This document shows, in pieces, positions 1 to 18,329 of a stretch of 64,000 nucleotides of DNA. The stretch is taken from NCBI RefSeq assembly GCF_029504735.1, contig NZ_JAQFIP010000002.1:1-64000 (forward strand), read 5' to 3'. A model generated the notes under the pieces. It had not been told where the DNA came from and did no database searches. It saw only the letters and a list, made by a program, of their open reading frames with translations. A program made the position numbers and the translations under genes. Numbering within the stretch: the stretch's first letter is position 1; every line of letters starts with the position of its first letter. The DNA is from Ereboglobus sp. PH5-10 (lineage in GTDB: Bacteria; Verrucomicrobiota; Verrucomicrobiia; Opitutales; Opitutaceae).

Positions 1-1
1 C

Positions 2-118
2 CGGGCGCAGGGCCGTGCGACGGTCTTTGAGTGGATTGAGGCGTTTTACAATCCCCGGCGTCTGCACTCCTCACTCGGATATCTTTCCCCGGTTGACTTC
101 GAAAAACTTAACAACTGA
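2..118 (+). CDS. IS3-family transposase OrfB, C-terminal fragment
   Basis: Only the last 38 codons are present; the 5' part is outside the window. The fragment carries the end of the IS3 integrase core: YNPRRLHSSLGYLSPVDFE, the conserved Y-N-x2-R-x-H-x2-L-G-Y-x-S-P-x2-F-E block at the C-terminus of OrfB (rve_3 type). This enzyme is a DDE recombinase that moves the insertion sequence. The stop codon is TGA at 116-118. The catalytic residues lie upstream and cannot be checked here, so whether the copy is intact is unknown. Confidence 0.85.
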   Translation, partial: RAQGRATVFEWIEAFYNPRRLHSSLGYLSPVDFEKLNN

Positions 119-141
119 TCTCCCTTTCCCGTCTGCGCCAC

Positions 142-166
142 TGTCCGCAATTCGAGGGTAAGCCCA
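142..166 (+). repeat. Putative right terminal inverted repeat of the IS
   Basis: A 25-bp stretch 24 bp after the transposase stop begins with TGTCCG and ends with AAGCCCA. The position and terminal CA fit the right end of an IS3-family element. The partner repeat is outside the window, so this rests on position and composition only. Confidence 0.4.
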
Positions 167-247
167 CCTGATCGCATCGTTTACCATCGTGGCAGCGTCA
201 TTTATGCGCGCTTAAAGGATGGAGGAGAAGAGGACTACCGGCATCCG

Positions 248-1084
248 TTGGATGTATCCAATGGCCTTGAGTGCGGTTGTGTGTGTGATGAGTGTAATGA
301 ACCGCTTTTGGGGTGTGCGAATGACCCGGTGAAGCGGGAAGCTGGGGCATACAAGAAAATCGCCTATTTTGCCCACCAGTCCAACTCTGAGTGCGCGCCC
401 AAGGGCGAACGTGGATTGTTGGAGGCTTTCAGGTTGGTGATTGATGCTTCGCGAAAAATACTGCTGCCGGCGGCCTGCCAGAGGCTGGATGATGGACAGG
501 TGCTGAATGTCCCTTATCGAAAGGCGGCAGTGGCTGATGTCTATTCGCTCTCAGTCGAGCCCAGACAGCCGGGTGAGCCGTATTCGCTTTGGGTTGAGAC
601 TTCGCTGGGGACAATCCGCTTGTTGGTCGTCGTCAATCGCCCACGGGTCTTGAGCGCAAAAGCGTTGGAGCAAAAAACGTGTTCGATTGTGACTGCAAAC
701 ATGGTTCCTGATGTTGGCGGAATCATTCAAATGAGGGACGTGCTTGCGGCGGTTAATGAGGCGAGGGGATTGTATTGGGAATATTATCCAGAGATGGAGG
801 CGGACAAGGCTGCTCAGGCGGAAAAGATCCGTCTTTCCCGAGCAATCGAGCAGATTCGTAGCCGCGAGATTAGGATAGCACCGAAACGTGAGGTGCGGGT
901 AGCGTATGGAGGGAGAGTAAAGGAAAAGAAGGTGGATATCAGCGACGAAGAGGCGGTGCGGAGGGGGTGGAGGCGTGTGCTCTGTGTAGCGTGTAAGGCA
1001 GAGACCTGTTACGGCCCACCAGCTGGGGTTTGGCGGTATTGCACGGAATGCGGTCGATACACCAATTTCTGGACTATGGATTGA
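248..1084 (+). CDS. CoiA-like zinc-finger protein, 5' end probably cut by the IS
   Basis: The residues after a TTG at 248 include a possible CoiA-like N-terminal zinc module (CDEC, then YFAH, then a Cys), a middle part I do not recognise, and a C-terminal zinc ribbon (CVAC, then CTEC). CoiA-type proteins are nuclease-like and are common on mobile elements; the nuclease role is inferred. The reading frame stays open upstream to 119, directly behind the transposase stop. Residues read from about 167 (for example RIVYHRGSVIYARLKDGGEE) look like real protein. The TTG is therefore probably not the original start, and the gene likely lost its 5' end to the insertion. Codon use and GC content are lower than in the genes to the right. 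Confidence 0.55.
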   Translation: MDVSNGLECGCVCDECNEPLLGCANDPVKREAGAYKKIAYFAHQSNSECAPKGERGLLEAFRLVIDASRKILLPAACQRLDDGQVLNVPYRKAAVADVYSLSVEPRQPGEPYSLWVETSLGTIRLLVVVNRPRVLSAKALEQKTCSIVTANMVPDVGGIIQMRDVLAAVNEARGLYWEYYPEMEADKAAQAEKIRLSRAIEQIRSREIRIAPKREVRVAYGGRVKEKKVDISDEEAVRRGWRRVLCVACKAETCYGPPAGVWRYCTECGRYTNFWTMD

Positions 1085-1154
1085 AGGGTTTATTTAACAG
1101 GAGAATGCGAATGTTGTCGAAATGCCAACAGCTGTGCCCGACGCGCCATTTTAT

Positions 1155-1212
1155 CACGGCTGTGCAAGGTAGTGCTCGTTCCTCGCCTCCACCTTGACAG
1201 CCGTGTTTTTTT
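1155..1212 (+). terminator. Rho-independent terminator after the CoiA-like gene
   Basis: An inverted repeat of about 14 bp (arms near 1155-1169 and 1192-1205, starting CACGGCTGT, with one bulged base) is followed at once by a run of seven to eight T. It lies 70 bp downstream of the CoiA-like stop on the same strand. The loop is about 22 nt, longer than usual. Confidence 0.65.
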
Positions 1213-1757
1213 GCGCCTATCGGGTCACTGCTTAATAGGAATCACATGGAGAACTTAATGCGCCGCTCGTTGGCGGCTGGGTCGCCTGGCCTTGACGTTT
1301 CAAGAACGGCAAAGATTCCACGTCATGCCTTGTCCGCGATAGAGCAGTAAAACGCATAGGATGCATCGAATCGGCAGGGGCCAACCTCAAATTTGCCAGT
1401 GTCGGCTTCCACCCATTAAGGACATCGGCAAAAGTGCAGGTGTTGCGATTATCCGAAAGACGGACACTGGCAGCGTAAAGCACTTATACGCGAGTGCGCA
1501 CCAACGCGCAAAAATGAAATTTTAAGGCGTGCAAAACTGCAAATAAACACCCATCTTGAAATATAGAAATGTATTCATTTTTTGAATACAAGAGGCGTTC
1601 AAGTGATGCCAAAAAAGAGCTTAGGTTGCCACAAGGTTGCCAAAAACGCTTCTTTTTGCTTCCCTTGTTTGCCCTTTTCTGCTACTGTATTCCTTTCGTA
1701 AAATATTAATAATCAACAAGTCCGCCAATCTCAACGACTTAATCAAAAGCATGGAAT
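1213..1757. other. Gene-poor, AT-richer flank of a putative attachment site
   Basis: No convincing gene is seen on either strand; the short open frames lack recognisable motifs. Two small structures stand out. One is an inverted repeat TGTATTC/GAATACA at 1570-1590. The other is a pair of direct AGGTTGCCA repeats at 1623-1631 and 1634-1642. Both lie within 200 bp of the tRNA-like fragment at 1758-1784, where integrase arm sites or an excisionase operator would be expected. Confidence 0.4.
1623..1642 (+). repeat. Pair of 9-bp direct repeats, possible integrase arm sites
   Basis: AGGTTGCCA occurs twice with starts 11 bp apart, about one helical turn. It lies roughly 115 bp from the tRNA 3' fragment. 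The spacing and position resemble arm-type binding sites of tyrosine integrases. No integrase gene is in the window. Confidence 0.35.
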
Positions 1758-1784
1758 AGGGTTCGAATCCCTCCTCCTCCGCCA
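1758..1784 (+). other. tRNA 3'-end fragment (probably Ser), candidate att site
   Basis: The stretch contains a T-arm (GGG TTCGAAT CCC), a 7-nt acceptor 3' strand CTCCTCC, a G discriminator and CCA. That is the 3' end of a tRNA; the G discriminator and the predicted GGAGGAG partner strand fit tRNA-Ser. The D-arm, anticodon arm and 5' acceptor strand are absent upstream. A lone tRNA 3' end is what remains at one boundary of an element that integrated into a tRNA gene. The element would lie to the left, with the intact tRNA at its other end outside the window. The rhamnosidase stop codon is only 6 bp away. Confidence 0.6.
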
Positions 1785-1789
1785 TGCGG

Positions 1790-4700
1790 TTACTGCTCCG
1801 CGGTGAAAATATAATTGCCAGATTCGATGGCGTAGACGGCCTTGTTATCGGAATCGGCACCGCGCAGGGCGCGGACGCCCTTGGCGTTTGCGACTGCAAC
1901 ACCGCCTTCGCGCACGGTTGCCGGATTTTTGGTCGGGATGTGGACCGTGGCGGTAGAGCCGGTGGGTATTGAAATTTCCAATACAAATTTTCCGCCTTCC
2001 TTTTTCCATGCGCACGCGACCGGGCCGCGAGGTGATTCGTAGGTGGCGCGTGCCCAGGTGATGTCTCCGACGACTTGCGGCTTGATGATGATTTTGCGGA
2101 AGCCGGGGCCTTCGGGATCGGGCTGCACGCCCACAAGGTCGCCGTAAAACCATTCCGTGACCTGCCCGAGCATGAAGTGGTTTTGCGAGGTTTGGCGGCG
2201 GGCGTTCCATGCCTCGGTCAGGCTGGTCGCGCCTTGGGCGAGTTGGTGGGCGTAGCCGGGTTTTTCGTCGCCTCGCGTGAGCATTTTGTGGATGAGGTCG
2301 GAGCGGCCGTTGTCGGCGAGGGCGCGGAGAAGGTAGCGATAACCGACATCGCCCGAGGTGACGCCGTAGTCGTCGGCTTGAAGGCGCGCGACGAGTGTGT
2401 CGAACACGACTTTGCGGCGTTCGGGCGGGACAAGGCCGAGCGCGAGGGGCATGGCCTGCGCGGTTTGCGAGCCGGTGGCGTAAGTGGCGATGTTTGGGTC
2501 GTCGGTGAAGGGTTTTTGCGCGGGGTCGCCGTCGTTGTTGAGGAAGGCGCGGTTGAATGCGTCGGCGATTTTTGCGGCTTCCTTGTTCAGGCGGGAGGCG
2601 TCGTCGGCGCGGCCGATGACGGTGGCGATGCGCGCGAGCGTGTGTGTGATTTCGTAATAGATGGCGGTGGCGGTGAGGGGCACGGGGGTGAGTTGAGAGA
2701 CGCCGGGGCGGCGCGGGCCGGAGTCAAACCAGTCGCCGAGGCCGTGCGAGAGGATGTGTTTTTTTGCGCGGGTGTTGAGATAATCGACGTAGTCATCCAT
2801 CGCGTCGAAGTAGTCGCGCAGGGGTTTGTCGTCGTCGGTCCAGATGTAGTGCTGCCAGGCGGCGAGGACAAACGCGGCGCCCCACTCGGGGGAGTCTCGG
2901 AAGCCGCCGGCGAAGATGGTGTATTCGGGCGCGATGTCGGGGACGAGGCCGGAGGGGAGTTGCGAGTCGGCCATGTCGCGGAAGCATTTTGCGAAGAGGC
3001 GCGCGGCGTCCCATTCGTAGCGGAGCGCGGGGCCGTTGAGGTGGTATTGTTCGAGCCAGCCGAGTTTTTCGCGGTGCGGGCAGTCGGTGAGAACGTGCGC
3101 GAGGTTGCTGCGCTGCGCCCAGCGCACGAGCGTGCGGATGCGGTTGAAGAGTTCGTCCGAGCAGGCGAAATCCCCTGCGGGCGGCGTGTCGGAATGGGTG
3201 ACGAGTGATTTGATTTTTTCGACGACGGGGCGGTTTTGGCTGCCGTCGGGCGGGATGCGCTCGACCTGAATGTAGCGCGTGCCGTGGTAATAGGTGTCGG
3301 GAGTCCACGATTCGCCGAAGGGATCGCCGCGCAGCGTGTATTGCCAGTAGGCTGCGCCGCCGCCGACCGACCTGCGGTCGAGGGCGCCGGTGCCGGGATC
3401 AACGAGCTCGGCGGGCGTGAGTCGCACGATGGAGCCGGCGGGGCCGCGCACGGTGAGCGAGGGCATCATCGAGGCGTTTTGCCCGAAGTCGATGATGCTG
3501 ACGCCGTCGCGTATTTGTTTTTCGGATACAGGTGAGAATTCCTCGAAATGGTTGAAGTGCGGGGATGCGAGCGAGAGTCCGCGGAATTTGCCGGCGGGGC
3601 CGGGGGTGGTTGCGGCGGGCGTCCATGCGCTGTCGTCGAACCCGGAGTCGGTCCAGCCACGCGGTTCGAGGCGGGCGTCGTAGTCCTCGCCGCCGTAGAG
3701 GTTGGAGTAGGTGGCGGGGCCGGTCGAGACGCGCCAGGCGCCGTCGGTGCTGATTGTTTCGACGAGGCCGTCGTCGTATTCGAGGCGGATTTGTCCGTGG
3801 GCGACGAGGGGCCGGAAGGGGGTTGTGAATTTGTGATAGCGGTTTAGTGGGTCGGGCCGGATGTTGTAAAAACCGCCGTGGAGGATGAGCGCGAGGACGT
3901 TGGATCCCTCGTGGAGCCGCGAGGTGATGTCGTAGGTGTCGTAGAGGACGGTTTTGTTGTAGTTGGTCCAGCCCGGTGCGAGGAGGCCGGTGGTGATGCG
4001 CGTGCAGCCGACGGAAAACTCGTAATGGCCAAGGCCGGTGATGTGGGCGAGCGCGCGGACAAGGCCGGGGCGCACGTTGAATTTGCGGCGCAGGAGAAGG
4101 GTGGTGTTGGCGCGCGGGTTGTGCTCGGAGGTGTCGAGCCCGTCCGTGATCGCGCCGGGCCGCCAGTTCACGCTGTCGTCGCTGGTGTCGCTCGCGGTGA
4201 CCGGGGCGTTGAGTGCGATGTTCTTTTTTTCGGGGCCGGAAAGGACTTCGATCTGGCTGAGGGCGAGAACGGGTTTGCCGTCGGCGGGCGCGCGGAGCTT
4301 GGTGGCGGTGACGCGGAGGTAGCGCGCGATGGCTGTGTGCGTTGCCGGGGGTGTGCGCTTGATGACGGCGCTTCGCGGATTGAGATCGTTTGCGGTGTCG
4401 TCGGAGATGGTGTGGATGCGGTGGGCTTTTTTGAAGGCGGGATCGTCCGACGCCTCGATTTTAAAACGAACGGGGAAGCCGTGCCGGTCCGGAAAACCGT
4501 GCCTGACGGCGCGAAGGATGACGGTGTCGATGGGCTGCGGCGAGCCGAGGTCGAGTTGCACCCACTTGGGCGTGTTTGCGTGTTTTGCCTCGCGAGAACA
4601 GAAGCCGAACGCCTTGCGCTCCCATTTGAGGAGCGCGGGGTCGGTGATCCATTGCGCGCCGGGTTGCCAGCCGGGGCCGAGAGGAGTGTCGAGCACGCCC

Positions 4701-5143
4701 GTGGTGAAGGTGGCGACGGGACTCCACTTCGAGGCGCGCGAGCCGGGGGCGTTGCTCCAAACTCGAACTTTCCAGAAAACTTGCTGCGAGGTGGCGAGCG
4801 GGCGTCCGTTGTAGGGGATGTTGAGGGTTTCGGACGATGTGACGCGTCCGCTATTCCAGAGGTCGCCGTAGTCGCGCGCGAGACGCTCGGCGCTCGTGGC
4901 CGCGAGGATTTCGTAGGCGAGCTGGTTTTCGCCGCGTTCGGGCGAGGATATCCGCCAGCTGAAACGCGGTTTTTCGGAGTCGATGCCGAGCGGACTTTCG
5001 AGATTTTCGCAGCGCAGCGAATCGACCTCAAGCGCGGCGCGAGCGGCGGATGCGAAAGCGAACAAAGTGACAAGCATCGCAACCGCCGCGAGGGCGTGGC
5101 GCGACCCGCATGTTTTGCAAATCATCGTTCCGATACGAAACAT
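1790..5143 (-). CDS. Secreted GH78-type alpha-L-rhamnosidase
   Basis: This 1117-residue enzyme should hydrolyse terminal alpha-L-rhamnose from plant or microbial glycans outside the cytoplasm. Residues 1-36 form a signal peptide (hydrophobic stretch, then ASAARA). An Ig/fibronectin-like N-terminal domain follows. A discoidin/F5-8C-like module with WVQLDLGS and YLRVTA lies near 160-290. The bacterial rhamnosidase N-domain comes next, then an alpha/alpha-barrel with the hallmark DCPHREKLGW near 686-695, whose Glu/Asp residues are catalytic in the family. A beta-sandwich C-terminal domain ends the protein. The frame is open further upstream to 5860, but that part is antisense to the next gene. 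The start was set at the ATG before the signal peptide; an ATG at 5125 is an alternative. It is divergent from the U32 gene and no transporter adjoins it. Confidence 0.9.
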   Translation of the reverse strand: MFRIGTMICKTCGSRHALAAVAMLVTLFAFASAARAALEVDSLRCENLESPLGIDSEKPRFSWRISSPERGENQLAYEILAATSAERLARDYGDLWNSGRVTSSETLNIPYNGRPLATSQQVFWKVRVWSNAPGSRASKWSPVATFTTGVLDTPLGPGWQPGAQWITDPALLKWERKAFGFCSREAKHANTPKWVQLDLGSPQPIDTVILRAVRHGFPDRHGFPVRFKIEASDDPAFKKAHRIHTISDDTANDLNPRSAVIKRTPPATHTAIARYLRVTATKLRAPADGKPVLALSQIEVLSGPEKKNIALNAPVTASDTSDDSVNWRPGAITDGLDTSEHNPRANTTLLLRRKFNVRPGLVRALAHITGLGHYEFSVGCTRITTGLLAPGWTNYNKTVLYDTYDITSRLHEGSNVLALILHGGFYNIRPDPLNRYHKFTTPFRPLVAHGQIRLEYDDGLVETISTDGAWRVSTGPATYSNLYGGEDYDARLEPRGWTDSGFDDSAWTPAATTPGPAGKFRGLSLASPHFNHFEEFSPVSEKQIRDGVSIIDFGQNASMMPSLTVRGPAGSIVRLTPAELVDPGTGALDRRSVGGGAAYWQYTLRGDPFGESWTPDTYYHGTRYIQVERIPPDGSQNRPVVEKIKSLVTHSDTPPAGDFACSDELFNRIRTLVRWAQRSNLAHVLTDCPHREKLGWLEQYHLNGPALRYEWDAARLFAKCFRDMADSQLPSGLVPDIAPEYTIFAGGFRDSPEWGAAFVLAAWQHYIWTDDDKPLRDYFDAMDDYVDYLNTRAKKHILSHGLGDWFDSGPRRPGVSQLTPVPLTATAIYYEITHTLARIATVIGRADDASRLNKEAAKIADAFNRAFLNNDGDPAQKPFTDDPNIATYATGSQTAQAMPLALGLVPPERRKVVFDTLVARLQADDYGVTSGDVGYRYLLRALADNGRSDLIHKMLTRGDEKPGYAHQLAQGATSLTEAWNARRQTSQNHFMLGQVTEWFYGDLVGVQPDPEGPGFRKIIIKPQVVGDITWARATYESPRGPVACAWKKEGGKFVLEISIPTGSTATVHIPTKNPATVREGGVAVANAKGVRALRGADSDNKAVYAIESGNYIFTAEQ

Positions 5144-5296
5144 GAAAAGATGTTTTATGCGCATGGGCCGCGAGGTGAAGCGGAAACGCAGAAAAGCGCG
5201 CAAAATTTGGGGGATTTTTTTTGAACGCGTTTGGCGAAAAATGACGGCGGAATTGCGCGCGCTTGATTTGGGCGGGTTCGCTTGTAGTTGTTTTGC

Positions 5297-7891
5297 ATGG
5301 TGCAAAATAACGACACGCCTCGCCGTCCCGAAATCCTCGCGCCCGCGGGGGATTGGGAATGCGTGCGCGCGGCGGTCGAGAACGGCGCCGACGCGGTCTA
5401 TTTCGGACTGGAGCGCTTCAACGCCCGCATGCGCGCGAAAAATTTCACGCAGGCCGACCTGCCCGCGCTCATGGCGTTTCTGCACACGCGCGGCGTGCGC
5501 GGTTACGTGACGTTCAACACGCTTGTGTTTCCCGGCGAGATCGGCGAGGCGCGCGACTACGCGCGCACGATCATCGCCGCCGGCGCCGACGCAGCCATCG
5601 TGCAGGATGTGGGCGCGTGCAAACTCATCCGCGAAATCTCGCCCGATTTCCCCATCCACGCGTCCACGCAAATGACGGTCACGAGCGCGGCGGGCGTTGC
5701 GTTTGCGCGCGAACTCGGCGCGTCGCTCGTGGTGCTTGCCCGCGAAAACACGCTCGCCGACATCGAGGCGATCCAAGCCGCGCAGCGCGCCTCCGGCCAC
5801 GCGCCGCTTTCGCTTGAGGTGTTTGCGCACGGCGCGCTTTGCGTGGCCTACTCCGGCCAATGCCTGACCAGCGAGGCGCTCGGCGGGCGTTCCGCCAACC
5901 GCGGAGAGTGCGCGCAGGCGTGCCGGCTGCCCTACGAGTTGATTTGCGACGACCGCAAGGTCGATCTCGGCGACCGGCGCTACCTGCTCAGCCCGCGTGA
6001 TCTCGCGGGCATCGACGTGCTGCCGGAACTCGCGCGCCTCGGCGTCGCCTCGCTCAAAATCGAGGGCCGCCTGAAATCGCCCGAATACGTGGCGAGCATC
6101 ACGCGCGTTTATCGGGCGGCGCTCGATAAACTAATGGAGAACGAAAAATGCATAATGGAGAATGTCGGGGGCGATTGGCAGTCCGGGACTGCCCCGCATT
6201 CGAAATATGAACTGGAGATGACTTTTTCGCGCGGGCTGGGCACGGGATGGTTTCGCGGCATCGACAATCAAAATCTCGTCCACGCGCGCTTCGGCACCAA
6301 GCGAGGCGTGTTTTTGGGCGAGGTCGCGCGCGTGCAAAACGAAAGCGCCACGCTCCGCCTCGCCGCGCCGCTCAAGCCGGGCGACGGCGTTGTGTTCGAC
6401 GCGGGCACGCCCGAAATCCGCGAGGAAGGCGGACGCGTTTACCAAGTCGATGCGCGCCCCGGCGGCGAAACGACCCTGCGCTTCGGCCATGGCGACATCA
6501 ATTTCGGGCGCGTGCGCCCCGGCCAGCTTTTGTGGAAAACCAACGACCCCGCGCTCGACCGTGAATTGCGCGCCACCTACGACGGCGACAAGATTCGTCA
6601 CACGCGCCCCGTTGACGCCGAGGTGCACGGCCACGCCGACGCGCCGCTCACGCTGATTCTCAACGACCGCGCCGGGCATGTCGTGCGCGAGGATTCCGCG
6701 GTCGCGCTTTCGCCTGCGCAAACCCAGCCGCTCACGGAGTCGCGCCTGCGCGACCAAATCGGACGCCTCGGCGGCACGCCCTACAGTCTTGGCAAACTCG
6801 CCTCGCGCATCGAGGGCGACGTCATGCTGCCGATGAGCGAGCTCAATCGCCTGCGCCGCGCCGCCGTTGAAAAACTCACCGCCCTGCGCGCCGCGCCGAA
6901 ACGCTGGACGATTCACAACGGATCGAGTGGCACGGGCGACTCAACCGTGATTCGGCGCATTCAACACGGGCGAGTCGCCCGTGCCACTCAACCCGCCGCA
7001 GCCGAAATCATTCCCGTCTTGCGCAATCTTTCCCAGCTTGAGGCGGCGCTCACGGTGCCGGACATCGCGACGGTTTATTGCGAGTTCGAAAATCCGAAAC
7101 ACTACCGCGAGGCGGTGGCGCGCGTCCGCGATTTGGGAAAACCGGATTTGGAAATATGGGTTGCGCCGCCGCGCATCACCAAACCCGGCGAGGAATGGAT
7201 ACTCGCGCAAACGCGCTCGGCAAACGCCGACGGCTACATCGCGCGCAATGCCGACCACCTGCGCTACTTCGCGGACGACCGCAAGCGGGGCGATTTTTCG
7301 CTCAACGTCGCCAACCAAATCGCCGCCGAATATTTTCTCGCACATCATGGACTTGAGCGCGTTACCGCATCCTACGACCTGAACATCGCGCAACTCGAGG
7401 CGCTGTTGCAGGCGTCGAACAACGCTGCGCGTGCGCTCACGCCGGCATCCTACGACATCACGATTCACCAGCGCATGCCTATGTTTCACATGGAGCATTG
7501 TGTGTTTTGCACGTTTCTCTCCGGCGGCAAGGATTACCGCGACTGCGGACGTCCCTGCGAAAAACACCGTGCGCGCCTGCGCGACAGGACGGGCGCGGAG
7601 TTTCCGCTCAAGGCCGACGCCGGCTGCCGCAACACCGTTTTCAACAACCGCGCGCAAACCGGCGCCGAGTATGTCGCGCGGTTGCTCGCGCTTGGCGCGC
7701 GCCATTTTCGCGTGGAGTTTGTCGATGAGACGCCCGGCGAAGTCGTGCAAACGCTCGCGCGCTACCGTCAACTCCTGCGCGGTGAAATCGACGGCGCGGC
7801 ACTCTGGCGCGAATTAAAACTGCTCAACCAGCTCGGCGTGACGCGCGGCCAGATGGAAGCCGCCCCGAGAATCCTCCGCCGCAAAAATTGA
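5297..7891 (+). CDS. U32-family protein, RlhA/YegQ type, with DUF3656
   Basis: The 864-residue protein opens with PEILAPAGD and carries the U32 signature near residues 172-190 (EVFAHGALCVAYSGQC), followed by more conserved cysteines. A DUF3656-like middle region follows. A second cysteine-rich block lies near 734-755 (CVFC...DCGRPC). E. coli RlhA, of this family, hydroxylates C2501 of 23S rRNA; other members act in tRNA hydroxylation or ubiquinone synthesis. The length and DUF3656 favour RlhA, but the substrate is inferred. The ATG at 5297 is preferred over an upstream TTG at 5288. Two stretches look inserted in frame: about residues 277-300, and about 543-565, which is encoded by a perfect palindrome. 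Confidence 0.88.
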   Translation: MVQNNDTPRRPEILAPAGDWECVRAAVENGADAVYFGLERFNARMRAKNFTQADLPALMAFLHTRGVRGYVTFNTLVFPGEIGEARDYARTIIAAGADAAIVQDVGACKLIREISPDFPIHASTQMTVTSAAGVAFARELGASLVVLARENTLADIEAIQAAQRASGHAPLSLEVFAHGALCVAYSGQCLTSEALGGRSANRGECAQACRLPYELICDDRKVDLGDRRYLLSPRDLAGIDVLPELARLGVASLKIEGRLKSPEYVASITRVYRAALDKLMENEKCIMENVGGDWQSGTAPHSKYELEMTFSRGLGTGWFRGIDNQNLVHARFGTKRGVFLGEVARVQNESATLRLAAPLKPGDGVVFDAGTPEIREEGGRVYQVDARPGGETTLRFGHGDINFGRVRPGQLLWKTNDPALDRELRATYDGDKIRHTRPVDAEVHGHADAPLTLILNDRAGHVVREDSAVALSPAQTQPLTESRLRDQIGRLGGTPYSLGKLASRIEGDVMLPMSELNRLRRAAVEKLTALRAAPKRWTIHNGSSGTGDSTVIRRIQHGRVARATQPAAAEIIPVLRNLSQLEAALTVPDIATVYCEFENPKHYREAVARVRDLGKPDLEIWVAPPRITKPGEEWILAQTRSANADGYIARNADHLRYFADDRKRGDFSLNVANQIAAEYFLAHHGLERVTASYDLNIAQLEALLQASNNAARALTPASYDITIHQRMPMFHMEHCVFCTFLSGGKDYRDCGRPCEKHRARLRDRTGAEFPLKADAGCRNTVFNNRAQTGAEYVARLLALGARHFRVEFVDETPGEVVQTLARYRQLLRGEIDGAALWRELKLLNQLGVTRGQMEAAPRILRRKN
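6925..6989. repeat. Palindromic element inserted inside the U32 gene
   Basis: Two perfect 18-bp inverted arms (6925-6942 and 6972-6989, beginning GAGTGGCACGGGCG) flank a 29-bp loop. The reading frame is kept, so the element adds a segment reading SGTGDST...GRVARATQP. A diverged relative lies in the alpha-2-macroglobulin gene near 32201-32252. Confidence 0.85.
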
Positions 7892-7911: not shown

Positions 7912-7998
7912 GGGAGCGCGGGCATCCTGCCCGCCGGTTTGGATGCTTGGGCGGCGCGGTGTGCCGCGCCGTCTTGCGGGCAAGATGCCCGCGCTCCC
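7912..7998. repeat. Intergenic palindromic element
   Basis: Inverted 23-bp arms at 7912-7934 and 7976-7998 (GGGAGCGCGGGCAT...) differ at one position. The loop contains a second small palindrome around GCGGCGCGG. It follows the U32 stop codon and has no T run, so it is a repeat element more than a classical terminator. Confidence 0.85.
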
Positions 7999-13285: not shown

Positions 13286-13744
13286 ATGAACTATCCAGCA
13301 CGCACCAATAATCAGGAGATCGAGCTTGGCTCGACGTTTCAGCCGAAGTTCGGCGAGGACGGCCTCATCCCTTGCATCACGCAGGACATCACCACGGGGC
13401 AGGTTCTCATGTTTGCCTTCATGAACGCCGAGTCGTTCGCGCACACGCTCAAGACGCGCAAGGCCACCTACTGGAGCCGCTCGCGCAAAAAACTTTGGGT
13501 GAAGGGCGAGGAGTCCGGCAACGTGCAATGGGTGAAAGAAATCTACACCGACTGCGATCAGGACGTCGTCCTCGTAAAGGTTGAGCAAACCGGCTCGGCC
13601 AACGCCTCCTGCCACAACGGCTACAAGAGCTGCTTCTACCGCAAGTTTGCCGACCTCGACACCGCCGCCGCCGGCACCGAATACAAGCTCACGACAATCG
13701 CCGAACGCCTCTTCGACCCGGCGACGGTGTATAAGAAGAAGTAG
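13286..13744 (+). CDS. hisI: Phosphoribosyl-AMP cyclohydrolase
   Basis: The 152-residue enzyme opens the purine ring of phosphoribosyl-AMP, the third step of histidine synthesis. It has [14 protein letters not shown], the [20 protein letters not shown] block and the zinc and catalytic residues in YTDCDQD and [13 protein letters not shown]. There is no fused HisE domain, so the pyrophosphohydrolase must be encoded elsewhere. No other his gene is in the window. The ATG at 13286 gives the usual family N-terminus. Confidence 0.95.
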
Positions 13745-17270: not shown

Positions 17271-18329
17271 ATGTTTGACGGCACCTACATCTTCAAGGAC
17301 CCGCTCTGGTTTCTCGCGTTGCTCGCCATCCCCGCGATCATGTGGCTGCGCTCGCGCCGCACCGTGCCCGTGTTGATCGTTCCGTTTGCCGCCGCGTGGC
17401 ATCGCGCGTCGCTCACCGGCCCCTCGCGCTGGCCCGTCATTTTTGCCTCGCTCGGAATCGTCCTCATCACCATCGCGCTCGCGCGTCCGCAAAAAGTCGA
17501 GGACAAGCGCGAAGTCCGCACGCAAGGCTACGACCTCATGCTCTCCATCGACCTTTCCGGCTCGATGTATTCCGAGGACTTCACCGAGGGCGGCACGCCC
17601 ATCAACCGCCTCCAGGCGATCAAACCCGTCATCAAGGCCTTCATCAACGACCGCCCCAGCGACCGCATCGGCGTCGTCCTTTTCGCCGGGCACGCCTACA
17701 CGCTTGCGCCGCTCACCTTCGATCACGACTGGCTCGCGCGCCAGATCGAGCAAATCAACATCGGCCTCATCGAGGACGGCACGGCAATCGGCGACGGACT
17801 CGGCGTGGCGCTCACCCGGCTCGAACAATCCGAGCGCACCGAGGACGGCAACAAGCGCAAAGGCGCCTTCGTGATTCTCCTCACCGACGGCGCCAACAAC
17901 CGCGGCATGCTCTCCCCGCAGCAAGCCACCGAAATCGCCAAGGAGCGCAACATCCCCGTCTACACCATCGGAGCCGGGCGCGAGGGCTGGGTGCCGTTTC
18001 CCGTCCTCGACCAAAATAGAAACCGCGTCGGCACGCGCCGCGTGGTCAGCGACCTCGACGAGGAAACGCTGCGCACCATCGCGCGCGAAACCGGCGGCCT
18101 CTATTTTCGCGCCCGCGACAACAACACCATCAAGTCCGCGTTCGCCGCCATCGACCGCGCGCAAAAAATCGAGTTTCAAGCCAAGTCCTACCTCGTCACC
18201 ACCGAGTATTTCCACTGGTTCGCCATTCCCGGCGGCGCGCTCTTTTTACTCGCCGCATTGTTCACGCGCCTGAATACGCGCGCTTCATTCCGCACTCCGA
18301 GTTCCGAACTCCGCACTTCCACCCAATGA
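17271..18329 (+). CDS. batA: BatA, VWA-domain membrane protein
   Basis: The 352-residue protein has two N-terminal hydrophobic segments (about residues 9-22 and 53-70). A von Willebrand A domain follows with an intact MIDAS motif (SIDLSGSMYSED) and LLTDGANNRG. A C-terminal membrane anchor (WFAIPGGALFLLAALF) completes the layout. BatA and BatB are periplasm-facing VWA proteins linked to oxygen and stress tolerance in Bacteroides and Leptospira. The stop overlaps the batB start (ATGA). Confidence 0.93.
   Translation: MFDGTYIFKDPLWFLALLAIPAIMWLRSRRTVPVLIVPFAAAWHRASLTGPSRWPVIFASLGIVLITIALARPQKVEDKREVRTQGYDLMLSIDLSGSMYSEDFTEGGTPINRLQAIKPVIKAFINDRPSDRIGVVLFAGHAYTLAPLTFDHDWLARQIEQINIGLIEDGTAIGDGLGVALTRLEQSERTEDGNKRKGAFVILLTDGANNRGMLSPQQATEIAKERNIPVYTIGAGREGWVPFPVLDQNRNRVGTRRVVSDLDEETLRTIARETGGLYFRARDNNTIKSAFAAIDRAQKIEFQAKSYLVTTEYFHWFAIPGGALFLLAALFTRLNTRASFRTPSSELRTSTQ

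Follow-up and report, generated by a model that had tools for sequence, protein, structure and literature searches.

An IS3-like insertion in the last gene of a predicted ICE ending at a tRNA-Ser(TGA) fragment in Ereboglobus sp. PH5-10

The window analysed here is the whole stretch of 64,000 nucleotides that forms bases 1–64000 of contig C2 of Ereboglobus sp. PH5-10, whose genome of 3.58 Mb is represented by 45 contigs. The contig opens inside an IS3-like element, followed by a reading frame with remote similarity to CoiA and by the 3' end of a tRNA gene. The initial annotation saw here a CoiA-like gene cut by the IS, and the right boundary of an integrated element with the IS inside it. The question is which element this could be, where its other end lies, and what the gene has lost. 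We are confident that an ICE of about 39.8 kb, residing in tRNA-Ser(TGA) and below called ICE-A, has its right end at positions 167–1784, and that its last gene was cut by the IS at codon 11. The proposed boundary is thereby borne out and made more specific, the element being an ICE with T4SS genes and a relaxase.

Results

The IS3-like element and the cut gene

The right end of the IS (Table 1) is sharply delimited. Five such ends (on C2, C24, C26 and two on C27) agree up to ...GGGTAAGCCCA and then break off; since they diverge after 166, the protein-like sequence, formerly placed at about 167, starts at exactly this position. The transposase remnant ends with the TGA codon at 116–118. An IS fragment on C27, related to the window copy, yields 53.9 bits with rve_3, and the score of the 113-aa C27 fragment against the full-length IS3 model NF033516 is 140.9 bits at a cut-off of 160, this being a partial copy. 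The left end of the IS forms the first 94–95 bases of contigs C13, C25 and C27, and the left and right ends are equal at 19 of the 25 outermost bases, forming terminal inverted repeats. A shared 3-bp duplication (CCT) is seen in only one of fifteen pairs of left and right IS ends, C13–C2. The rve transposase core, the terminal inverted repeats and the 3-bp duplication are common with the IS3 family; only fragments are assembled here, and the family model remains below its cut-off on the partial copy.

One IS3-like copy (L024, 1344–3902) has its upstream part replaced by the IS21-type genes IstA and IstB. Another IS copy adjoins an integrase fragment (L022, 168–605, minus strand) and tRNA-Asp(GTC) (724–800).

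The frame following the IS is open from 119 to 1084, that is, up to the transposase stop as stated before; it is the same frame as that of the transposase, and it contains no ATG, GTG or TTG ahead of TTG 248. Three relatives of the encoded protein were compared: L033 from G046 (315 aa, 79% identity), L070 from an Opitutaceae MAG (307 aa, 50–52%) and L034 from G006 (25%). The first two start upstream of TTG 248, namely 10 (L033) and 8 (L070) residues upstream of the residue aligned with codon 167–169. The conservation begins with the first residues past the IS (IVYHRG, with more invariant positions before TTG 248).

The start of the gene is found on C13. The flank of the IS there, read in the IS orientation, carries ATG, nine further codons and, at its end, CCT, and the window flank begins with CCT. 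Fused on one copy of CCT, the flanks yield a single open frame matching the relatives, which places the IS at codon 11 in the CoiA-like gene. Judged by the sequence of the two flanks, the IS3-like element has split the start codon of this gene from its remainder; the join of C13 to C2 is drawn from these flanks, the IS interior between them being unassembled. Since no usual start precedes TTG 248, and a protein starting there loses 37 residues, some of them invariant, the truncated gene is probably dead. The earlier claim of a cut thus stands, whereas the likeness to CoiA is remote: the Pfam CoiA_N match has 15.0–15.2 bits, below the cut-off of 26.3, and hence the protein is named CoiA-like, not CoiA.

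Table 1. Features of the window and loci of the second element
Feature	Coordinates	Strand	Evidence
IS3-like right end	1..166	+	shared through 166 with further IS ends of this genome
IS transposase, C-terminal 38 codons and stop	2..118	+	rve_2, 26.2 bits (cut-off 22)
Target duplication, right copy (CCT), coinciding with codon 11 of the truncated gene	167..169		left copy on C13
CoiA-like gene minus its first 10 codons (IS-truncated)	167..1084	+	relatives L033, L070, L034; start on the C13 flank
Conserved non-coding segment of ICE right ends	1131..1280		85% vs C25 and vs the G002 element
ICE right-end arm	1622..1758	+	93% vs C25 (1622–1784), 95% vs G002 (1622–1789)
Two direct GGTTGCC repeats, candidate integrase arm sites	1624..1641 (1624–1630, 1635–1641)		sequence
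attR core, 26-bp tRNA-Ser(TGA) 3' fragment, T-arm to gene end	1759..1784	+	26/26 vs tRNA-Ser on C13
Host ORF right of the element, outside the ICE	1790..5860	-	1790–6500 95.4% identical to G002 DNA
ICE-B loci	L027 15607–19492; L020/L021 (contigs C24, C25)

The attachment site and the gene content of ICE-A

An intact tRNA-Ser with the same 3' end, which the initial annotation had called for, is tRNA-Ser(TGA) at C13:38267–38357; its last 26 bases are those of the attR core. The tRNA fragment of the window is confirmed, but not its former extent of 27 bases from 1758, as it starts at 1759. With an E-value of 8.7e-7 in this genome, the match is not due to chance; the other tRNA-Ser found in the search, tRNA-Ser(CGA) on C5, is 92% identical over the same 26 bases. 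As read from the assembled contigs, the element has the undamaged tRNA gene on its left and, as its right border, the 26-bp copy of that gene's 3' end.

The expected integrase gene lies beside tRNA-Ser(TGA) on C13, starting 73 bases past it, with the unassembled IS interior between it and the window. Leftwards from the tRNA, C13 encodes this 413-aa tyrosine integrase, T4SS genes, a coupling protein, a MobF relaxase and a metal-efflux block (RND pump, P-type ATPase, AraC-type regulator); the leftmost extent of ICE-A on C13 is the IS end at C13:1–95. From the tRNA to the right end, without the IS and one copy of the duplication, the element comprises 39,786 bases. The relaxase (228.8 bits, cut-off 100), the coupling protein (TrwB_AAD_bind, 45.1 bits, cut-off 20.5) and TrbI/VirB10 (83.8 bits, cut-off 35) are above their thresholds. 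The integrase matches Phage_integrase with E 7e-5 (23.1 bits, below the cut-off of 27.1) and the XerC model with E 1.3e-5, likewise below the cut-off, and all matches to TrbC/VirB2, PrgI/VirB3, VirB4 and VirB5 are below the curated cut-offs as well. The proteins at the VirB8 and VirB9 positions match no profile, and VirB6, VirB8 and VirB9 were assigned by position only. ICE-A is hence predicted to be a self-transfer element of about 40 kb.

The right-end arm contains the motif AATCAACAAGTCCGC, which is present in this genome (G000) on C2 and C25 and, with one base more, on C26. The heptamer GGTTGCC, direct at the right end, occurs again as an inverted pair between the tRNA and the integrase gene at the left end, and these repeats may be arm sites of the integrase. 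The host ORF beyond the element is presumably rhamnosidase-like, as assessed by eye. Rfam at the gathering score gave nothing in window positions 1–3000, and neither did promoter and terminator scans in positions 1–2000. No empty tRNA-Ser(TGA) site with the same flanks was found, the neighbours in G051, G001 and G010 having other flanks.

The features listed suggest the following course of events. The tyrosine integrase would join the circular ICE to the T-arm part of tRNA-Ser(TGA), with the tRNA being restored. Single-strand transfer by a relaxase and a T4SS is established for such systems, and by analogy those of ICE-A would transfer a single strand. Later, the IS3-like element inserted at codon 11 of this element's last gene, which is CoiA-like cargo; it thereby duplicated 3 bp and probably disabled the gene. 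The closest known systems are tRNA-integrated ICEs and islands (Islander, PMC4383910), which share with ICE-A a tyrosine integrase adjoining the intact tRNA, a displaced 3' fragment and conjugation genes; ICE-A differs in residing in an Opitutaceae-type genome, in having an IS at its right end and in having sister elements, with related integrases, that appear to lie at palindromes, not tRNAs.

The same locus is seen in G002, a genome from this genus that is closed. Its tRNA-Ser(TGA) is at 2887942–2888032, and the 26-mer is repeated at 2927924–2927949, 39.9 kb apart. Region C13:316–42957 aligns with G002 as one collinear piece (98.2% identity), including the host flank, and the window flank (1790–6500) aligns about 0.8 kb beyond the G002 attR; these alignments demonstrate that C13 and C2 bound one locus. 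The last 2 kb of the G002 element are different, being a C25-type right end by DNA alignment, and a protein search found no CoiA-like protein in G002. Hence G002 is proof of the locus, not of the gene junction.

A second ICE in the same genome

Another element, ICE-B, is spread over two contigs. On C24, tRNA-Ser(GCT) is followed by an integrase 68% identical to that of ICE-A and then by the genes known from ICE-A, as far as the beginning of virB4, at which an IS sits. C25 picks up in the last part of virB5. At its own end, 31 bases match the 3' terminus of tRNA-Ser(GCT), five of these bases being beyond the tRNA; a 353-aa gene is in its right-end slot. Compared with G002, ICE-B lacks about 3.6 kb, that is, most of virB4 and virB5 (in the alignment C24 ends at 13731 and C25 starts at 17303), and its IS flanks share no duplication. 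The gap is either an IS-linked deletion or a lost contig. The cargo of ICE-B is of the arsenic type (ArsR, methyltransferase, ArsP, SBF permease, LMWP).

Alternative readings

The right end in the window could belong to ICE-B rather than to the C13 element, as two close ICEs coexist and their common T4SS proteins are 92–99% identical. This is very improbable: C25 already holds the right end for tRNA-Ser(GCT), with its 31 bases reaching past the tRNA, the core in the window agrees with the TGA tRNA at all positions, the target duplication fits C13 only, and in G002 the host flank of the window is found at tRNA-Ser(TGA). It is even less probable that the 26-mer is a chance match or a decayed tRNA remnant with no attachment site, since, although ARAGORN finds no tRNA in the window, the exact 26-mer marks the edge of an element both here and in G002, and C25 repeats this arrangement with a tRNA of its own; of all readings considered, we give this one the least credit.

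A similar choice concerns the gene start. Within the frame, no usual start codon comes before TTG 248, and if this were the true start, the similarity upstream of it would be irrelevant. Yet IVYHRG and the further invariant positions are retained in three relatives whose frames extend upstream, which makes a start at TTG 248 highly unlikely, slightly more so than ownership by ICE-B. The TTG 248 start, the assignment to ICE-B and the chance tRNA match were all rejected on this evidence, and we retain ICE-A with its last gene cut at codon 11.

Related integrases and their targets

The integrase of ICE-A has matches in 44 of 100 family genomes (E 1e-20 or better). Genome G046 (7.8 Mb) alone yields 18, some of them fragments, and most of those examined (L112–L125) adjoin palindromes. 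We considered a sample of 39 integrases: 20 returned loci, 17 hand-picked ones, mostly from G000, G002 and G046 (L124 being the L103 integrase again), the one on C24 and the one at tRNA-Ser(CGA) of G002. Of the returned loci, 16 have a tRNA or tmRNA predicted by ARAGORN immediately before the integrase gene (Ser, Glu, Asp, His, tmRNA); in the other four, a tRNA 3' end was recognized by eye (L093, L099) or a palindrome is present (L102, L105). Among the hand-picked integrases, one follows a tRNA (L126) and 16 do not. The total is 21 genes after a tRNA or tmRNA, 16 after a palindrome at a near-constant distance, and two with neither of these clearly recognizable.

The motif GCNGGCATCNTGCCNGC is present in half of the 18 non-RNA loci, starting 80 or 90–91 bases before the integrase gene, in one case with a second copy at 117. 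A perfect stem of at least 7 pairs occurs between positions −140 and −55 in 13 of these 18 loci, versus 7 of the 144 control zones taken farther upstream at these loci; the T-arm at ICE-A lies at −99 to −87 relative to the integrase gene. In four of the 18 loci, this zone lacks a perfect stem of 6; L111 and L115 carry the motif with unpaired arms, and the palindrome scan of the zone gave nothing clear for L119 and L125. The palindromic motif has 21 copies in G000, 30 in G002 and 108 in G046, and its reversed control has none.

Two elements of G002 end in the same palindrome beside a right arm similar to that of the window, their ends lying 42.0 kb and 51.6 kb apart. Relatives of the relaxase, the coupling protein and T4SS genes are present in each, the T4SS block of one being inverted relative to the integrase gene, and the other showing no VirB2–VirB4 match. 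The integrase tree (38 rows, with the truncated L125 dropped and L119 unlabelled) follows the target type, with two changes between RNA and palindrome targets, and a supported branch has 14 of the 16 palindrome rows on one side; the rows were hand-chosen, the labels were assigned by eye, and near-copies from G046 weigh heavily. For the two palindrome-flanked elements of G002, the left flank was found in G000 and G051, with the right flank beside it in none of four cases; as no empty palindromic site emerged from these comparisons, the palindrome might be borne by the element rather than be a host target. Literature searches on REP or palindrome targets of such integrases gave no matching case among the matches listed.

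We lean slightly towards a reading in which ICE-A belongs to a large integrase group, widespread among these bacteria, whose core site is a hairpin palindrome, either the T-arm of a tRNA or tmRNA or a dispersed REP-like sequence, and in which the right-end slot holds exchangeable, possibly anti-phage, cargo. If so, the shift to dispersed palindromes would let a genome gather many copies, as in G046. Leaving single tRNA targets for dispersed repeats may be selected against. For an ICE group of a bacterial family that has been little studied, the exact ends, target and cargo are now given, and several related copies within one genome as well as a closed sister genome serve for comparison; should the palindrome reading hold, the family would provide a direct test of an integrase moving from a single tRNA to dispersed repeats.

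A third integrase of the family in G000 (L141, C5:59805–61025) has the palindromic motif 80 bp upstream, no tRNA, and T4SS genes after it. After another ICE-like right end, at L023 11949–12514 (C26:21948–22512), comes the palindromic motif instead of a tRNA fragment. In the window, positions 7918–7992 contain an inverted pair of REP-like palindromes 41 bases apart, and similar pairs are found elsewhere in the genome.

The CoiA-like protein and the right-end slot

A single-protein search finds the CoiA-like protein in three of 61 family genomes, including this one. A four-row profile matches nine of 387 phylum genomes, again counting this one, but seven of the nine matches are partial and do not exceed 28 bits. 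By eye, the protein has an N-terminal Cys-rich segment and an F-x-H motif in the alignment, both shared with the CoiA competence family; unlike that family, it is below the Pfam cut-off, is borne on mobile elements and has no identified catalytic motif, the PD-(D/E)XK motif not being conserved in the four-row alignment as inspected by eye. The structure model (pLDDT 40.6) is unusable, and the best match among solved structures has E 0.49. NCBIfam and PHROGs yielded no match, and PADLOC none for the CoiA-like proteins, except a marginal 10.5-bit Cas10 match for L070 that was disregarded. Viral contigs gave 28 stretches fitting the pattern and no confirmed relative, phage records no relative, and the plasmid search one remote match that is annotated as CoiA family and is 25% identical across 71% of the query. 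Literature searches for CoiA in combination with ICEs, and for ICEs of Opitutaceae or Verrucomicrobia, gave nothing of use among the matches listed.

In L070 (6680–10900) the CoiA-like gene is downstream of a large serine recombinase, so that the gene also occurs on a different kind of element. The ORF adjoining this recombinase we take, by eye, to be comM/Mg-chelatase-like.

PADLOC profiles applied to ten chosen proteins identified PDC-S64 (161 bits) in ICE-A, and AbiTii (152 bits) and PD-Lambda-3_B (309 bits) in ICE-B. CoiA is a predicted PD-(D/E)XK nuclease (PMC1189080), and a CoiA-domain protein is listed among E. coli anti-phage systems (PMC9519451). Together with the defence-type neighbours, these accounts make a defence role of the CoiA-like protein at most possible; it may act on DNA in defence or be related to uptake.

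The right end is thus a variable slot: in the sister right ends, the 353-aa gene takes the place that the CoiA-like gene has in the window. The 353-aa protein in the ICE-B slot (L021, 17745–18806) has no match in Pfam, PHROGs or PADLOC; by eye, it contains what we take to be a restriction-enzyme-like E-V-K stretch.
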